Position numbers and translations under genes: made by a program. Below, piece after piece: positions 13,381 through 55,750 of a stretch of 64,000 nucleotides of DNA; the first letter of the stretch is position 1; each line of letters begins with the position of its first letter. The DNA lies in contig NZ_CP060724.1 of the NCBI RefSeq assembly GCF_014397255.1, positions 806,001 through 870,000 on the forward strand, read 5' to 3'. This DNA comes from Weissella diestrammenae (GTDB lineage: Bacteria > Bacillota > Bacilli > Lactobacillales > Lactobacillaceae). Under the pieces are notes generated by a model that saw only the letters and a program-made list of their open reading frames with translations, was not told where the DNA came from and made no database searches.

Positions 13381-13433
13381 TATATGAAATGTTTTTCATA
13401 TGTGTTATAGTATATATGAAAAACATTTCATAT
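13381..13433 (+). promoter_or_regulatory. Double ArsR-type operator over the cadD promoter
   Basis: Two 21-base arms, TATATGAAATGTTTTTCATAT (13381-13401) and its near-exact reverse complement (13413-13433), flank TATAGT, a probable -10. Each arm is itself an imperfect dyad of the TGAA-N6-TTCA type bound by ArsR/SmtB repressors. The transporter start is 15 bases downstream and the ArsR gene follows it, so autoregulation is likely. Confidence 0.8.
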
Positions 13434-13448
13434 AAAAGGGGGCTGCTT

Positions 13449-14060
13449 ATGGTAACAGCATTAATCACGGCAATTTTGTCATACTTAGGGACAACATCGG
13501 ATTATTTAATGATCCTATTATTGGTTTTCACGCGTTATCAGCAAACAAAACAACGTCAGAATGTGGTAATAGGCGCATATTTGGGTAATTTGGTTTTGGT
13601 TATCCTCTCATTACTTGTTGCGATGCTCTTGAAACAGGTACCTGATGAATGGCTATTAGGTTTATTAGGCTTAATCCCAATCTATCTGGGGATTAAAGGG
13701 TACTTTTGGCCTAAAGATGAAAGTAACGAAGTGGCAGAACGTTTGTCTGGTATGTCAGCTGGACGTATCATATTGAATGTAATTGTTTTGACGGTTGCAA
13801 CTTGTGGGGCAGACAATCTAGCCTTGTATATTCCGTATTTTGCGAATTTAAACATGTTATATTTACCGCTAATTTTAGGGGCGTTTATTGTGATATTAAC
13901 TTTGATTATCGGTTTAGCCTGGTGGGGGTCTAGGCTAAATTTTATCGGTCAGTTGTTTAAACGCTATGGCGAGAAAATTCAATTGGTGATTTATGTTGGT
14001 TTAGGCGTTTATGTGATGTTTGAAGCTGGTACGATTCAGTCCTTGCTACATTTGTTATAA
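13449..14060 (+). CDS. cadD: CadD-family metal efflux transporter
   Basis: A polytopic membrane protein of 203 residues of the CadD (cadmium resistance transporter) family, with five or six predicted transmembrane segments: residues about 1-25, 38-60, 65-82, 105-125, 133-155 and 175-198. The family pattern NxTxxSDYL-like segment appears as LGTTSDYLMILLLVF, and VATCGADNLALYIPYFA in the middle is typical. It should export divalent soft metals such as cadmium or zinc. ATG 13449 is preferred over 13389 because GGGGG lies 7 bases before it and 13389 lies inside the operator. The ArsR gene begins 7 bases after the stop. Confidence 0.85.
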   Translation: MVTALITAILSYLGTTSDYLMILLLVFTRYQQTKQRQNVVIGAYLGNLVLVILSLLVAMLLKQVPDEWLLGLLGLIPIYLGIKGYFWPKDESNEVAERLSGMSAGRIILNVIVLTVATCGADNLALYIPYFANLNMLYLPLILGAFIVILTLIIGLAWWGSRLNFIGQLFKRYGEKIQLVIYVGLGVYVMFEAGTIQSLLHLL

Positions 14061-14067
14061 TAAGGAC

Positions 14068-14412
14068 ATGAAAAAAGAAGCAATTAATGAATTAGAGCAA
14101 ATTTTTAAATTATTAGGCAATAAGCAGCGGTTAACCATTTTAGAGTTGTTGCGCGTTCGGGCGTATCGTGTTTCAGAAATTGTAGACGTCATGCAGATGG
14201 AACAATCGGCAATCTCACACCAGTTAAAATTGCTGCGTGAAGCACAACTTGTGCAAACAAAAAAGCAAGGCCGTGAAGTATTATATTGTTTAACGGACTC
14301 TCATATCCTAAAACTACTTGATAATGCGATGCAGCACGTCAATCATGTGCTACTACATGAGTCACATGAAGTTTATGAGCTGTCACAACAAAGCCATGAT
14401 AGTAATGAGTAA
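14068..14412 (+). CDS. ArsR/SmtB repressor with an alpha-5 metal site
   Basis: A 114-residue winged-helix dimeric repressor (LLGNKQRLTILELL; recognition helix MEQSAISHQLKLLREA; wing KKQGREVLYCL). It lacks the ELCVCDL cysteine box of CadC. Instead the C-terminal helix has D77-x-H79-x10-H90-x2-H93, the exact DxHx10HxxH pattern of the alpha-5 zinc/cobalt site in CzrA and SmtB. That points to zinc or cobalt as the inducer even though the partner is CadD-like. The start at 14068 has TAAGGA upstream. It shares a transcript with the transporter and should bind the double operator at 13381-13433. Confidence 0.9.
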   Translation: MKKEAINELEQIFKLLGNKQRLTILELLRVRAYRVSEIVDVMQMEQSAISHQLKLLREAQLVQTKKQGREVLYCLTDSHILKLLDNAMQHVNHVLLHESHEVYELSQQSHDSNE

Positions 14413-14590: not shown

Positions 14591-14619
14591 TTGCTGACAT
14601 TAAAAAAAGGTGGTAAAAT
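14591..14619 (+). promoter_or_regulatory. Promoter of the permease leader
   Basis: TTGCTG (14591-14596), 17 bases, TAAAAT (14614-14619). It places the transcript start near 14626, just ahead of the leader peptide ribosome site at 14633-14641. Confidence 0.6.
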
Positions 14620-14650
14620 TTGGATTATTCCAAGAAAGGTGGCAACTTAC

Positions 14651-14722
14651 ATGCAGAATAATCAGCAAAACAAGTCAATGACCACCACCTCAACCACATT
14701 AATAATTGGTTGGGGTATTTGA
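14651..14722 (+). CDS. Threonine-rich leader peptide
   Basis: A 23-codon open frame with ribosome site AAAGGTGG (14635-14642) 8 bases before ATG 14651. Its second half reads MTTTSTTLIIGWGI and stops with TGA at 14720-14722. Five of six codons 11-16 are Thr (ACC ACC ACC TCA ACC ACA), followed by Leu-Ile-Ile. This is the composition of a regulatory leader peptide such as ThrL of enterobacteria. It sits between a promoter and a terminator that precede an amino-acid permease, and its codons overlap the RNA segments that would form the attenuator stems. The product itself probably has no function beyond being translated. Confidence 0.8.
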   Translation: MQNNQQNKSMTTTSTTLIIGWGI

Positions 14723-14786
14723 GGAACTTGTCGATTGAAAACAGGCACCCAACCGTTTCGCGCTGATGCGACGGCTGGGTGTTTTT
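14688..14786 (+). promoter_or_regulatory. Candidate transcription attenuator (alternative stems 1:2, 2:3, 3:4)
   Basis: Four segments can pair in competing ways. Segment 1 CCTCAACC (14688-14695) lies within the Thr codons. Segment 2 is GGTTGGGG (14708-14715), segment 3 CACCCAACCGT (14746-14756) and segment 4 ACGGCTGGGTG (14771-14781). Segments 1:2 pair over 8 bp, 2:3 over 7 bp (GGTTGGG with CCCAACC), and 3:4 form the terminator ending in TTTTT. A ribosome stalled at the Thr codons would cover segment 1, free segment 2 to pair with 3, and prevent termination. A ribosome reaching the stop codon would cover segment 2 and allow 3:4. The pairing is read directly; the mechanism is inferred. Confidence 0.75.
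14746..14786 (+). terminator. Attenuator terminator before the permease
   Basis: Stem CACCCA-A-CCGT / ACGG-C-TGGGTG with one internal mismatch, loop with an inner CGC/GCG pairing, and five T. It lies 74 bases before the permease start. Confidence 0.85.
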
Positions 14787-14859
14787 ATGAGAAATGGACC
14801 AAGCGTCGTGACTAAGTCTAACCGTGTGGGATTACTAACACTAGAGGAGTGGAGTAAAG

Positions 14860-16236
14860 ATGGAAAAAGAAGATAAAAATCAGTTACGAGGCGGCCTATC
14901 ATCTGGGCAAATGCAGATGATTGCTTTAGGGGGCACAATTGGGGTCGGATTGTTTTTGGGATCCGCAACAACGATCGCATGGACTGGGCCTTCAGTCATT
15001 TTAGCCTATGGGTTTATGGGCATTATCCTATATTTGGTGATGCGTGCGCTGGGTGAAATCTTATACATTAATCCAAGTACGGGATCGTTTGCTGATTATG
15101 CAACGAATTATATTCATCCGGTAGTTGGGTGGCTGACATCATGGAGCAATATTTTTCAGTATATTGTTGTTGGCATTTCAGAGGTGATAGCGGTTGGAAC
15201 TTATATTGATTACTGGTTTCCAGGGGTTCCAGGTTGGGTTTCTGGTTTAGTTGTGATTATTACTTTAACTTTGGCTAATCTGGTTTCTGTTAAAACTTAT
15301 GGACGGTTAGAATACTACTTTGCGATGGTCAAAGTTTTGACGATTATTTTGTTAATCATCATGGGCTTACTAATGATTATTTTTGGCCTTGGTAACCATT
15401 GGCAGCCGATTGGGTTTAGTAATTTGTGGGCCCATGGTGGCTTTTTCACAGGTGGCATTACTGGGTTTATGTTCTCATTGTCCATCATTGCAGGATCATA
15501 TCAGGGAATTGAAGTGCTTGGTATTACGGCTGGTGAGGCAGAACAGCCTCGTGAGGCGATTGTGAAGTCGATTCATTCAGTCATCTATCGGATTTTAATT
15601 TTCTATATTGGGGCTATTTTTGTGATTGTCACACTTTTTCCATGGAATGAATTGGGAAATATTGGTTCACCATTCGTTGAAACATTTGCCAAAGTTGGTA
15701 TCGCAGGTGCCGCTTCGATTATTAATTTTGTGGTCTTGACAGCAGCTATGTCTGGTTCGAATTCAGGGATTTATTCATCAAGCAGAATGCTATACAAATT
15801 GGGCCAAGACGGCTATGTTTCAAAGAAATTTGCCAAGTTATCTAGTCATCATGTGCCATACGTTGCGATCTTAGCGATCTCATTTGGTATCCTATTAGGG
15901 ATCTTAATGAATGCAGGGTTAGAATCATTTAGTAAAATTGGGGTGAAGTTGTTTGTTGTGGTTTATAGTTCGTCTGTACTACCAGGTATGGTGCCATGGT
16001 TTGTGATTATTTTGAGTGAATTGCGTTTTCGTCGTTCGAACCAACACTTGTTAACTAATCACCCATTAAAAATGCCATTGTATCCATTCTCAAACTATTT
16101 TGCATTAATCGCATTGTCAGTGATTTTAGTCTTTATGTTCCTTAACCCAGATACGCGGGTTTCGGTATCAATTGGCGTTGGTTTCTTATTGTTGATGACA
16201 ATAATTTATTTTATTCAGCGACCAAAACAAAAATAA
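14860..16236 (+). CDS. APC-family amino-acid permease, probably threonine-regulated
   Basis: A 458-residue membrane transporter of the amino acid-polyamine-organocation superfamily, AAT-like branch, expected to have 12 transmembrane segments. The first helix carries the signature QMIALGGTIGVGLFLGSA; MRALGEILYINPSTGSFADYA follows, and the sixth helix region reads FSLSIIAGSYQGIEVLGITAGEAEQP. Sequence alone does not set the substrate. The leader peptide rich in Thr codons 140 bases upstream suggests that threonine, perhaps with isoleucine, is imported. GAGGAGTGGAG precedes the start. The gene is alone between the attenuator and its own terminator. Confidence 0.88.
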   Translation: MEKEDKNQLRGGLSSGQMQMIALGGTIGVGLFLGSATTIAWTGPSVILAYGFMGIILYLVMRALGEILYINPSTGSFADYATNYIHPVVGWLTSWSNIFQYIVVGISEVIAVGTYIDYWFPGVPGWVSGLVVIITLTLANLVSVKTYGRLEYYFAMVKVLTIILLIIMGLLMIIFGLGNHWQPIGFSNLWAHGGFFTGGITGFMFSLSIIAGSYQGIEVLGITAGEAEQPREAIVKSIHSVIYRILIFYIGAIFVIVTLFPWNELGNIGSPFVETFAKVGIAGAASIINFVVLTAAMSGSNSGIYSSSRMLYKLGQDGYVSKKFAKLSSHHVPYVAILAISFGILLGILMNAGLESFSKIGVKLFVVVYSSSVLPGMVPWFVIILSELRFRRSNQHLLTNHPLKMPLYPFSNYFALIALSVILVFMFLNPDTRVSVSIGVGFLLLMTIIYFIQRPKQK

Positions 16237-16366: not shown

Positions 16367-19300
16367 ATGAAAAATTATCGTGGTCCGATTGTTGCAGCGT
16401 GTCTGATTGTGAGTGGATTGATGATTGTGCCAGTAGGCATGAAGTATCATCAACAACATAGTATTGCTGGTGACAAAAGTGCCCAAGAGAAGGTTAAAAA
16501 GTGTGCAGCACAAGCATATCCAGTTAGTATTGTAAAAACTAAAGCGGATAAATCATCCGACACCCAGACAAAAGGCGAAATCACCCCTTATGATGATCAG
16601 TTGAAATTCTTGGGTAAACAGCCGGGTAGCATGACGTTAGCTGAAAAATCGGCAACCCCAATTCGGATGACCATTAATTTAGCAGCGCCATCAGCCGTGG
16701 AAAGCCATTTCACCCCTGTACCAGATGGGAGTTTGAAAACAGCAGGTGCGATTGATCAGGCTGAAAAAAATGTTGTTGCAGCGCAAGCGCCAATTGTCAA
16801 ACGAGTTGAAGAAATAACCGGGCAACGGGTGACAAATCAAAAAGGGTATTTGGTCAACGCCTTTTCAATTATGGCTAAGCCGAATATGATTAATGATTTA
16901 CAGGGTATTTCAGGAGTCAAAGAGGTGACCATTCAAAATGTCTACCAAGCAGCCAATACCAATGATAATGAATTGGCGCAAGTGACTGATGACTGGCGCG
17001 CGCAACATGCTGGTGATGGGCGCGGCATGGTTATTGCAGACATTGATTCAGGAATTGACGCTACCCACCCAGATTTGAAATTAACGGCATCAGGTCGGCA
17101 GACTGCCAAACTAAGTCCGGCCGCTACTAACTACTTTCACGCCACATTGAAATATGGGCGTTATGAATCAGAAAAAGTGCCTTTTGCCCATAATTATGCC
17201 GATAATATTGATGCACAAAGTGAGCTCAAAGATAATGGGCAAACTGGTGAGCACGGACAACATGTGGCAGGTATTTTAGCTGCGAATGGTCAAGTAACCG
17301 GAGTAGCACCAGAAGCGCAATTGTTAGATATGAAAGTGTTTAGTAATCATCATGCCGGCGCCACGACGGACGCCATTGTTGATGCTATGGAAGACTCAGT
17401 CAAAATGGGCGCGGATGTGTTGAATTTGTCACTAGGCGCACCCTTAACTAATTACTCAGCATTGATGCCGGAAAATGTGGCAGTGAGTCGGGCCGCCAAA
17501 CTAGGGGTTGTCACGGTGGTGGCAGCATCTAATTCTGGTCGCGCATCAGGCAATTTGAATGATTTACATACGAATGCGCACAATCCAGAAGAAGATATTT
17601 CAATCAGTGGGATGGCGGCCTCAAAAGATGCCATTGCAGTAGGCGCTATGGAAGGTACACAGAAGCATGTCATTTCAACGACCATTACAACGGACTTACA
17701 TAAAAATTTAGGGGGTGATACAATCGCTGTTACAGTGTCACCAGATATTCCAGAGCAGTTTTGGCAAGTCGACCATAAATTAATTGATAACGGTCGATGT
17801 GTGTCTTATACCCATGATCATGGATTAGATATTCCAACTGAAGCAGCTGAGGGGACCAAGCAAGCTGAAAGTGGAGACTCTGGAATTGATTCTGGCACAG
17901 ATGTGGGGAAAATTAAGATTGTTGGTTATAATTCAGCCATCCCATTTGAACAATATCAACTAGTCGGTGCAGGTAAAAAAGCTGAAGCGGTTATTTTGAT
18001 TGACGATCAAGATCGAGCCTTACCGGCTAGTAAAAAAATTTCGCATGTTGATAGTCAACACTGTCCATTAATATTTATGACGAAACAAGCAGGGAATCAA
18101 TTGTTAAAAGATTTACGTACTAACACGCCTCATTATGAAGAAAAAGCAAAATCAGATAATGGGTTACACGATAAAGCAGAATTGGGGCATGTCATGCTGA
18201 GCAAACCAATAACGACGGTTGTCAGTAATGAATCTAAAGGCAAGATGAGCACTTTTACATCATGGGGATCGACACCGGATTTGACCTTGAAGCCTGATAT
18301 TACAGGAATCGGTGGTAATATTTGGTCCTTGTCAAATCAAGGTTATGCTCAAAAAAGCGGGACCAGTATGGCCAGTCCGTTTGTTGCTGGAACGGTAGCA
18401 CTAATTAAGCAACAAGCTAATCAAAATCATGTTAATTTAGGTCAGGGTAGCGCTAAATTTGTGCAAAATATCAAAGGCGTATTACAAAATACAGCTGCGC
18501 CAGTAAAAGACACAACTAATGGGACTTACTTCTCGCCCCGGCAACAAGGTGGCGGTCTCGTGCAAGTCGATCGAGCCACGCAAGCAAATGCGGTGATTAC
18601 TAATGCCAATGATGGTCATACAACAATTGATCTTAAAGCCTTTAGAACCAAGGAAAAAACATTTAAGATTAAAATTCAAAATGTGACCCAGGTGAAGCAA
18701 AACTATCATGTGGCAGCACTTGGGAATGTACAAACAGAAGTCCGAACCACCGACTGTTCAAAGGTGAATACGACGGGACTCAGAACATTGCTAGATAAAG
18801 GTGGCAATTCTACCGGTGAGACTGTTAATTTGAATGACGCTGACATATATTATTATCGCGATGAGAAACCTTTTTTGGATCTTGTGAGTGAATCTACGGT
18901 TAATGGGGCCCAGGTTAATCTGCAAGGGAATAACATCACACTGGCCCCGGGACAGGAGAAAATTATTGACGTGACATTGACGATTCCGAATACGTTTACT
19001 GAGAATAATTGGATTGAAGGGTATCTTCAAGTTACAGCGACTCAAAAACCTGGTGTAATAGAAAGTATTCCCTATTTTGGATATTACGGTGATTGGGATG
19101 CAGGTAAACCGATTGATAAGCCGGCATCAGAAAAAGGGTCAATCAAAGGGTATGGTTATCTGGCTGATGAAATGAATGGTCACCCATTGGCAACTTTGAA
19201 TACAAAAGTGGTATCCCGTTCAGGTGATGTCAATTATACTTGTGACAATGAGCATGCTGCGGTTACTTTTAATCATAGTGGTGTGAACAGGGCATTGGAT

Positions 19301-21004
19301 ATGGAATATATGTTACGTTGGATGCGTTCAATTGATGTGGATGTGATGAGTGCGGATAAGCAACAGGTGTTGAGACATTTAGCAACATATCAGCAAACAC
19401 AACCCGGTCGAATCGATACTGAATGGAATGGCATGTTGCCAGACGCACTAACAGGACAAAGTAAATATGCGCCAGATGGTGTGTACTACATTCGAACTGT
19501 TGCGGTAACCCTTGATGGGGCAAAAACACAAACTGTCTATCGCAAGTTGACAATTGATAATTGTTGTCCGAAAGCAAAAAATGTGCATTTAAAGTGGCAA
19601 AAAGATGGTGTTCACCTGAGCGGAGAAATTGATGAAAAAGGGTCCGGGATGAATAACTTGACCAATGTACAAAGCGGTGGGTCACTTAGCTATCGAATTA
19701 ATACTATCGTGGGAGCACATTATTTTAATTCACCCTTTGATGAACAGCAATCAGGATGGTTGAATGGGCATTTCGATACCCTGATAAATACATCAGCCGT
19801 TAAAAATTTGAAAGCCAAAGATAATGTTGTTGAAATTTCCCTTCGTGATCGGGCCGGTAATGGTTCTTGGTTTGAAAATAAGTTGACCTTGCCAGTTGAA
19901 GGTACAACAGCAACACAAGAAAAGATTACAGCGCTGAATCACCACTTAGATGTGACTTATCATGGCGAGTCTTTTTATGAAGAAGAAACAAAGCGTGTTT
20001 ATACACCAGTGGGTCACATGTTGGAGCAATTTGCTAATCCTATTGAACCAAAGAAAATCAACGCTTATCAGCTCAAAACGCTTGATGTAAATTATTGGTC
20101 AATGACATTAGATGGGACGTGGCAAGGTAAACAGCCATTTACTATTACCGCATATAATAGTGATAATCAACCAATTGATCAGGTTAAAGTAACAGCAACT
20201 AATACGCATTGGCAAACACCGATTAAAATTGGGCGTTTTGGCTATATCACATTTAAAGACACCCAACAGCATGAAATTCATCAACCAATTGTACCTGAAA
20301 TTCAGAAGGAGGATATTTTAGAGAGCCGACTGGATGCTGATAAAATGGCGCAAGACACCGGTGGTAAGTGGGTGAAACGTGGTGATGAGCAGGTACTGGT
20401 TGTGCCAAATGAAACTGATAAATTAAAAGTGACAGGGAATTTTACCGGCCACTTACCAGGTCAACAGTTAATTTATAATAGTCAAGTACTCGATGCAGAT
20501 ACCCATACGATTCGGGTAACAAAACCCGAGTGGACTAATAACGCCCAGGGCATTAAGCAATTACAATGTTATTGCGGGGCACAGGGTGTTGAAAAATACA
20601 TCACCCCTTCGCCTGTTAATCACGCCGGGGAGATTAATGCCCAAGTTAATCTTTGGGATGCTCAGCAGCTGACCAATTTGCGAGAATTTAATCGGCTATT
20701 TAACGATCCGTTAGCTAAGGTACAAAACTATGAGGGTGCTGGTAATCAAGGTGATAACCAAAATGGTTGGCAAACCATTACTGTGATAGGTTATGAACCA
20801 GAATTTAAAACAATCACGGATCGATATGGTGATGTCCCTAATTACAAACAGATTTCCAATCCGTTTGAACCATTAGCAAAATATCTCTGGGAGCTTGAAG
20901 ACTTACAACAAACCTTTACTTTTAACGTCTATCGTTTACCAAAGGGTGAAAAGTTGACCCACGTTAAAGACTCGGGGCAGCAGGTGAGGAAATTCTACCA
21001 TTGA
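16367..21004 (+). CDS. Giant extracellular subtilase (S8, lactocepin/C5a-peptidase-like), frameshifted at its 3' end
   Basis: A secreted serine protease of 1545 residues in this frame. It has a basic-hydrophobic N-terminal signal (KNYRGPIVAACLIVSGLMIVPVG), an inhibitor-like propeptide to about residue 190, and a catalytic domain with D227 (ADIDSGID), H296 (GEHGQHVAGI) and S667 (SGTSMASPF). A PA-type insert lies between His and Ser, and an Fn3-like segment and long beta-rich C-terminal region follow. It probably degrades host or milk proteins at the cell surface. The frame ends early at TGA 21002-21004, and the missing C-terminus continues in another frame from about 20974 to 21744. A G run (20974-20977) shortened by one base would explain this. 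About ten cysteines outside the signal are unusual for such proteins. No LPXTG anchor is seen. Confidence 0.85.
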   Translation: MKNYRGPIVAACLIVSGLMIVPVGMKYHQQHSIAGDKSAQEKVKKCAAQAYPVSIVKTKADKSSDTQTKGEITPYDDQLKFLGKQPGSMTLAEKSATPIRMTINLAAPSAVESHFTPVPDGSLKTAGAIDQAEKNVVAAQAPIVKRVEEITGQRVTNQKGYLVNAFSIMAKPNMINDLQGISGVKEVTIQNVYQAANTNDNELAQVTDDWRAQHAGDGRGMVIADIDSGIDATHPDLKLTASGRQTAKLSPAATNYFHATLKYGRYESEKVPFAHNYADNIDAQSELKDNGQTGEHGQHVAGILAANGQVTGVAPEAQLLDMKVFSNHHAGATTDAIVDAMEDSVKMGADVLNLSLGAPLTNYSALMPENVAVSRAAKLGVVTVVAASNSGRASGNLNDLHTNAHNPEEDISISGMAASKDAIAVGAMEGTQKHVISTTITTDLHKNLGGDTIAVTVSPDIPEQFWQVDHKLIDNGRCVSYTHDHGLDIPTEAAEGTKQAESGDSGIDSGTDVGKIKIVGYNSAIPFEQYQLVGAGKKAEAVILIDDQDRALPASKKISHVDSQHCPLIFMTKQAGNQLLKDLRTNTPHYEEKAKSDNGLHDKAELGHVMLSKPITTVVSNESKGKMSTFTSWGSTPDLTLKPDITGIGGNIWSLSNQGYAQKSGTSMASPFVAGTVALIKQQANQNHVNLGQGSAKFVQNIKGVLQNTAAPVKDTTNGTYFSPRQQGGGLVQVDRATQANAVITNANDGHTTIDLKAFRTKEKTFKIKIQNVTQVKQNYHVAALGNVQTEVRTTDCSKVNTTGLRTLLDKGGNSTGETVNLNDADIYYYRDEKPFLDLVSESTVNGAQVNLQGNNITLAPGQEKIIDVTLTIPNTFTENNWIEGYLQVTATQKPGVIESIPYFGYYGDWDAGKPIDKPASEKGSIKGYGYLADEMNGHPLATLNTKVVSRSGDVNYTCDNEHAAVTFNHSGVNRALDMEYMLRWMRSIDVDVMSADKQQVLRHLATYQQTQPGRIDTEWNGMLPDALTGQSKYAPDGVYYIRTVAVTLDGAKTQTVYRKLTIDNCCPKAKNVHLKWQKDGVHLSGEIDEKGSGMNNLTNVQSGGSLSYRINTIVGAHYFNSPFDEQQSGWLNGHFDTLINTSAVKNLKAKDNVVEISLRDRAGNGSWFENKLTLPVEGTTATQEKITALNHHLDVTYHGESFYEEETKRVYTPVGHMLEQFANPIEPKKINAYQLKTLDVNYWSMTLDGTWQGKQPFTITAYNSDNQPIDQVKVTATNTHWQTPIKIGRFGYITFKDTQQHEIHQPIVPEIQKEDILESRLDADKMAQDTGGKWVKRGDEQVLVVPNETDKLKVTGNFTGHLPGQQLIYNSQVLDADTHTIRVTKPEWTNNAQGIKQLQCYCGAQGVEKYITPSPVNHAGEINAQVNLWDAQQLTNLREFNRLFNDPLAKVQNYEGAGNQGDNQNGWQTITVIGYEPEFKTITDRYGDVPNYKQISNPFEPLAKYLWELEDLQQTFTFNVYRLPKGEKLTHVKDSGQQVRKFYH

Positions 21005-55506: not shown

Positions 55507-55643
55507 ATCTAGTGTAATAGGGTCTTGCCAAGAGAAATATATTCCTATATATTAGTAAACAATACAATTTTAATTCAGATAGGCGTGACTTTAATTTTGT
55601 TTAGCGCTATCTGAAATAAATTGATTAAATATAAATATGAATG

Positions 55644-55707
55644 TTTAGTATAATCGTCGGGGAATGGTCGACGAGTTCCTACCTGCACCGAAACGCAGAC
55701 TACTAAA
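55644..55707 (+). ncRNA. Purine (guanine-type) riboswitch with shortened P2 and P3
   Basis: P1 TTTAGTA / TACTAAA encloses the conserved TATAATC, J2/3 GTTCCTACC and GACTAC of the purine class. The specificity base is C (55700), so guanine is the expected ligand. P2 is CGTCG / CGACG (5 bp) and P3 CTGC / GCAG (4 bp), against 7 bp each in the well-studied xpt aptamer. The loop-loop GG (55666-55667) and CC (55688-55689) are kept. It precedes a terminator and the xanthine permease gene. Confidence 0.85.
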
Positions 55708-55716
55708 TGACTTTTG

Positions 55717-55750
55717 ACACACCCATTCTTTTTGGTTGGGTGTGTTTTAT
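55717..55750 (+). terminator. Riboswitch expression-platform terminator
   Basis: ACACACCCA / TGGGTGTGT followed by T-rich sequence, 9 bases after the aptamer. Ligand binding would stabilise it and stop transcription of pbuX-xpt. Confidence 0.85.

Follow-up and report, generated by a model that had tools for sequence, protein, structure and literature searches.

The window analysed here is a 64,000-nucleotide stretch of the Weissella diestrammenae genome, which is represented by a single contig of 1.66 Mb (99.96% complete). It encodes an AAT-family amino-acid permease of 458 amino acids on the forward strand (14860 to 16236; Pfam PF00324, E 1.9e-103), and the region directly upstream contains a short leader rich in Thr codons that accompanies this permease in related genomes as well. 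The best of 19 NCBIfam models for the permease is ThrP (NF047867), a threonine/serine APC transporter, with 548 bits. As this lies below the curated cut-off of 850 bits, the protein is referred to as ThrP-like and not filed as ThrP. Positions 13389 to 14412, just 5' of the leader, encode a CadD-type cadmium transporter and then an ArsR/SmtB regulator (start at 14068). On the other side, the permease is adjoined by a 1545-residue subtilase with an Fn3-like domain (16367 to 21004), which resembles cell-envelope proteinases and may complement amino-acid uptake by supplying peptides. A purine riboswitch aptamer (RF00167, 53 bits) is found further downstream at 55626 to 55722.

All leader features lie on the forward strand. 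The leader begins with a sigma-A-type promoter (14591 to 14619) consisting of a -35-like TTGCTG (14591 to 14596), a 17-bp spacer and a -10 box TAAAAT (14614 to 14619) with an extended -10 TG. The -35 box is weak, and this promoter was absent from the list returned by a generic consensus promoter scan. A TTG followed by a 16- or 17-bp spacer and a -10 box is nevertheless found 59 to 77 nt 5' of the leader ATG in all 49 distinct leaders compared, 35 of them with an extended -10, and the combination of 17-bp spacing and extended -10 recurs in most relatives. A Shine-Dalgarno-like sequence, AAGAAAGGTGG (14632 to 14642), precedes an ORF of 23 codons plus TGA encoding the putative leader peptide MQNNQQNKSMTTTSTTLIIGWGI (14651 to 14722). 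Relatives carry GGAGG-like sites at the same place and retain the short ORF with its Thr run, so that both ribosome site and reading frame are kept and translation is predicted. The putative regulatory codons are ACC ACC ACC TCA ACC ACA (14681 to 14698). A previous reading of the sequence alone (sequence-only reading) had described this promoter, the 23-codon peptide with its ribosome site and the five Thr codons in six, all of which are present. With ACC used at 13 per 1000 codons in the host (six window genes), the Thr codons of the leader are not unusually rare.

Four RNA segments can form three mutually exclusive stems. Segment 1 (14687 to 14696), which underlies the Thr run, pairs with segment 2 (14707 to 14716) over 10 bp (ACCUCAACCA/UGGUUGGGGU), two more than initially claimed. 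Segment 2, coding in frame for the GWG of the peptide, can instead pair with the core of segment 3 (CCCAACC, 14748 to 14754) to give the predicted antiterminator GGUUGGG/CCCAACC, which has the 7 bp first assigned to it and can be extended. Segment 3 also contributes to the 5' arm of stem 3:4, the intrinsic terminator hairpin with U tail (14743 to 14786; arms 14743-14760 and 14767-14784), likewise confirmed by folding. Folding energies are -13.7, -13.6 and -22.2 kcal/mol for 1:2, 2:3 and 3:4, respectively, with a stability z of -3.6 for the terminator. When folding starts just past the Thr codons and stops short of segment 4, the RNA adopts 2:3; when it starts beyond the stretch that a ribosome at the stop would cover, the RNA adopts 3:4.

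The 64-kb window contains a single short ORF with at least five Thr in six codons. The same criterion applied to 40 dinucleotide shuffles of the window returned three ORFs in total, meaning that such an ORF by itself is roughly a 1-in-13 event. The case therefore rests on comparison with relatives.

Comparison of leaders

Upstream DNA of related permeases was collected from other Lactobacillaceae, and about 34 of these loci showed a clear Thr-run leader with all three stems. When leaders are aligned on the Ser codon of the run, the following codon (+1) is Thr in 49 of 49 distinct leaders and the next (+2) in 48 of 49, which bears out the expectation of the sequence-only reading that Thr codons would be kept in relatives. 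The codon preceding the Ser anchor (-1) is Thr in 47/49. Thr codons exchange synonymously between ACC, ACA and ACT, codons flanking the conserved positions are a mixture of T, S, I, L and others, and the peptide downstream of the run is unconserved. Thus, a run of Thr codons placed over segment 1 is conserved as codons. The leader might alternatively act as a general sensor of ribosome slowdown, as in antibiotic-resistance leaders, and be Thr-rich by accident, given that 2:3 would be favoured by a ribosome halted for whatever reason over segment 1, and that antibiotic-sensing leaders are named in PMC8632094 and PMC2965389. We consider this very unlikely because the codons change synonymously without losing Thr identity, and because the gene under control is in every case a permease of the threonine type and never a resistance gene.

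A Ser codon is found within the Thr run of 47 of the 49 leaders, and many Limosilactobacillus-type leaders contain two. As the best NCBIfam model of the permease is a Thr/Ser transporter, the TCA/TCC codons could be regulatory too, with the leader sensing serine besides threonine and the permease importing both, as ThrP's name implies. However, this Ser codon is part of segment 1 and its letters are needed there for pairing; in two leaders its place is taken by ACA (Thr, L083) or CAA (Gln, L021) with pairing largely kept. Further, T-boxes of orthologous permeases specify only Thr and not Ser, making joint sensing of serine an unlikely, though not negligible, alternative to a leader responding to threonine.

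Measured from the GG core of segment 2, the stop codon falls between -8 and +17 nt in 48/49 leaders and at +28 nt in the remaining one. As the stop lies near segment 2, a ribosome located there would mask this segment. The conserved GWG C-terminus was also considered as an arrest peptide and rejected; these residues are what segment 2 encodes in its reading frame, and 17 leaders end before reaching them.

For analysis of stem 2:3, the core served to align segments 2 and 3, and 13 pairs were counted. Core anchoring favours the central pairs, while outer flanking pairs were unused for anchoring, and the count omits about a dozen leaders in which the script missed segment 2, the segment 3 core or the terminator. 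The alignment is 80% paired, compared with at most 50% for slid registers. Changes on both sides are observed at 8 of the 13 pairs, for example at column pair 4-33 (C-G in 11, G-C in 8) and column pair 11-26 (G-C in 14, A-U in 11). Double-change cells number 41 versus 24 in shuffles, a count inflated by the kinship of the leaders, and the covariation score was reached by 0 of 500 shuffles. Cognate segments also pair better than swapped ones (p 4e-6, kinship included) and better than shuffled ones. Stem 1:2 is nearly invariant and gives no covariation signal, a constancy to be expected because codons fix one of its arms; a swap test of its segments was equally uninformative (p 0.95). The covariation that the sequence-only reading had proposed to look for is thus found in stem 2:3 and not in stem 1:2.

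As judged from these alignments, the element is far beyond chance given its conservation. That it is an unregulated element, made up of a constitutive terminator and a short ORF arisen by chance, is exceedingly improbable: although a Thr-rich short ORF by itself turns up in about 1 of 13 shuffled windows, the same anatomy, frame and covariation recur across 49 distinct leaders, which come from seven sampled genera.

Distribution of the leader element

A covariance model built on the Thr run and stem 1:2 matched 51 of 401 Lactobacillaceae genomes, distributed over 7 of 40 genera with one place per genome; 16 of these genomes were new to the comparison. Every match whose neighbourhood was examined is located directly 5' of the same permease. 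Two wider samples, 398 genomes from the order and 400 from the class, both of which include some Lactobacillaceae, gave no match beyond the family. It should be noted that large searches apply stricter filters, so weak relatives of the element may escape. No Rfam family matches the leader at gathering or relaxed thresholds, including Thr_leader (gathering threshold or E up to 5), which places it in none of the known leader families that the sequence-only reading had suggested searching. The sole Rfam match nearby is an sRNA upstream on the opposite strand (E 1.4).

Several related permeases lack the element or carry something different. Locus L014 (genome G055), with a 77% identical permease, has a leader-like ORF, MNNLQQKFELTATPIRL, followed by a hairpin and a terminator, containing only two Thr codons (TATP); we offer decay or change of the signal as a reading. 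The element is absent upstream of the permease of a close relative (L026, G220). A permease with 58% identity (L190, G294) is preceded, at roughly -231 to -165, by a different Thr-rich leader, MHNSYQNVVLTTTSFVTTTKV, and the RNA beyond it folds into a series of hairpins of very high stability (z -7.2) that ends in a terminator. The covariance model does not match this leader, which may be an independent Thr attenuator. Limosilactobacillus-type genomes contain second, more distant copies of the permease, which on inspection proved to have no Thr leader.

Thr T-boxes and permease phylogeny

No match to thrC was found in the window's genome, while all 14 control genomes gave one. As this genome is nearly complete, the host is probably a threonine auxotroph. 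T-boxes are in wide use in this genome, with 15 scoring places for RF00230, 5 of them above the cut-off. One T-box, with specifier ACU, precedes thrS, so that, with the permease leader, one cell would have two ways of sensing how far tRNA-Thr is charged. Another T-box (L132, G000:C1:722219-722412) is located directly 5' of a paralogous permease with 39% identity. Since T-boxes hold the equivalent place at sister orthologs, the leader itself might be a degenerate or unusual T-box binding tRNA-Thr directly. This is also exceedingly improbable, as RF00230 gives no match at the leader even at relaxed E-value although the genome's other T-boxes are found, and the leader has an ORF, predicted to be translated, with a conserved stop position.

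In a protein tree of 82 sequences, all 39 leader-controlled permeases fall into one clade with support 100/100. The clade also holds 7 permeases without a leader, two of which are plasmid-borne beside insertion sequences. Group permeases on Lactococcus and Lactiplantibacillus plasmids (L192, L194, L195) are found without leader next to IS6/IS30 transposases, as if mobilised without their control. Leader and permease occur together on a Limosilactobacillus fermentum plasmid, where the peptide is identical to that of chromosome G154 (L075). Sister orthologs controlled by T-boxes are found in neighbouring tree groups and include Leuconostoc, Liquorilactobacillus, Periweissella and further genera; their specifier, read at the Rfam consensus position, is ACU (Thr). 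The sequence-only reading had taken the leader as a hint to the permease substrate, and both these Thr specifiers and ThrP as best-scoring model, below its cut-off, agree that the permease would import threonine.

It seems fairly likely that, within one family, a T-box RNA and a translated leader peptide, which sense tRNA-Thr charging but are molecularly unrelated, replaced one another at an orthologous threonine permease, and that the leader-permease unit was then passed on as a self-contained cassette, both vertically and by transfer, with thrS of the same genome staying under T-box control.

Proposed model of attenuation

We propose, with a probability of about 0.93 based on sequence comparison, that the leader is a ribosome-mediated transcription attenuator sensing threonyl-tRNA and controlling a threonine permease. 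The geometry recognized in the sequence-only reading, with a Thr run over segment 1 and three competing stems, is consistent with this and extends to a conserved stop placement. From the anatomy, its conservation, the 2:3 covariation, the linkage to the permease and the position of the stop, we infer the following course of stalling, termination and readthrough. With ample charged tRNA-Thr, translation would proceed to the stop at segment 2, where the ribosome masks this segment, allowing the 3:4 terminator to form and transcription to end short of the permease. If tRNA-Thr is uncharged, stalling on the Thr run would leave the ribosome covering segment 1, so that 2:3 pairs, the terminator is blocked and the permease is transcribed. 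If the leader is untranslated, 1:2 and 3:4 would form, resulting in termination.

Relation to known systems

The enterobacterial thr operon is controlled through a Thr-rich leader peptide and terminator/antiterminator switching. The window leader shares both features with this attenuator (Rfam Thr_leader). However, its sequence is unrelated and without Rfam match, and it controls a permease instead of biosynthesis in a Gram-positive host without detectable thrC. Within Firmicutes, ribosome-mediated attenuation has been shown experimentally for Rli60, the ilv-leu attenuator of Listeria monocytogenes (PMC5864092), and is supported for the ilv leader of Staphylococcus aureus (PMC5794164); the latter paper also cites a prediction for L. 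lactis. These ilv systems resemble the window leader in mechanism but differ in responding to branched-chain amino acids and controlling a biosynthesis operon, with neither a Thr run nor a transporter target. His leader attenuators have been predicted in several Firmicutes, upstream of hisS*/hisZ (PMC2965389) and his operons (PMC9413887), and leader peptides replacing T-boxes were already noted in PMC2965389. These represent codon-run attenuators in a lineage that otherwise relies on T-boxes, and a precedent for a change of sensor type; they differ in that they respond to His and target biosynthesis or synthetase paralogs, and a Lactobacillus Thr permease leader is not mentioned in the passages searched. 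A T-box survey (PMC2494555) reports a Thr T-box before an APC transporter (ykbA/steT orthologs) only in the Bacillus cereus group and mentions no leader peptide. Those systems likewise place a Thr transporter under control of tRNA-Thr charging, but the RNA reads the tRNA directly, without leader-peptide translation.

Ribosome-mediated attenuation itself is therefore a known mechanism with Firmicutes precedents. The Thr attenuator seen in the sequence-only reading is supported; within Firmicutes, however, the mechanism has precedents in Listeria Rli60, S. aureus ilv and Bacillus his. Searches of the open-access literature turned up no earlier description of a Thr leader from lactic acid bacteria, and the Thr/transporter/Lactobacillaceae leader family and its interchange with T-boxes appear to be unreported in the literature searched.

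The leader adds a defined, family-wide attenuator to Gram-positives, where leader-peptide attenuation is thinly documented and T-boxes are dominant, and supplies a Thr leader family that Rfam does not contain. It also gives a prediction of what the permease transports in bacteria like the host of the window, which is apparently unable to make threonine. As sister species run the same gene by T-box, the two arrangements represent a natural matched pair for comparing sensors, which could address how they differ in speed, range and cost, and how one replaces the other.
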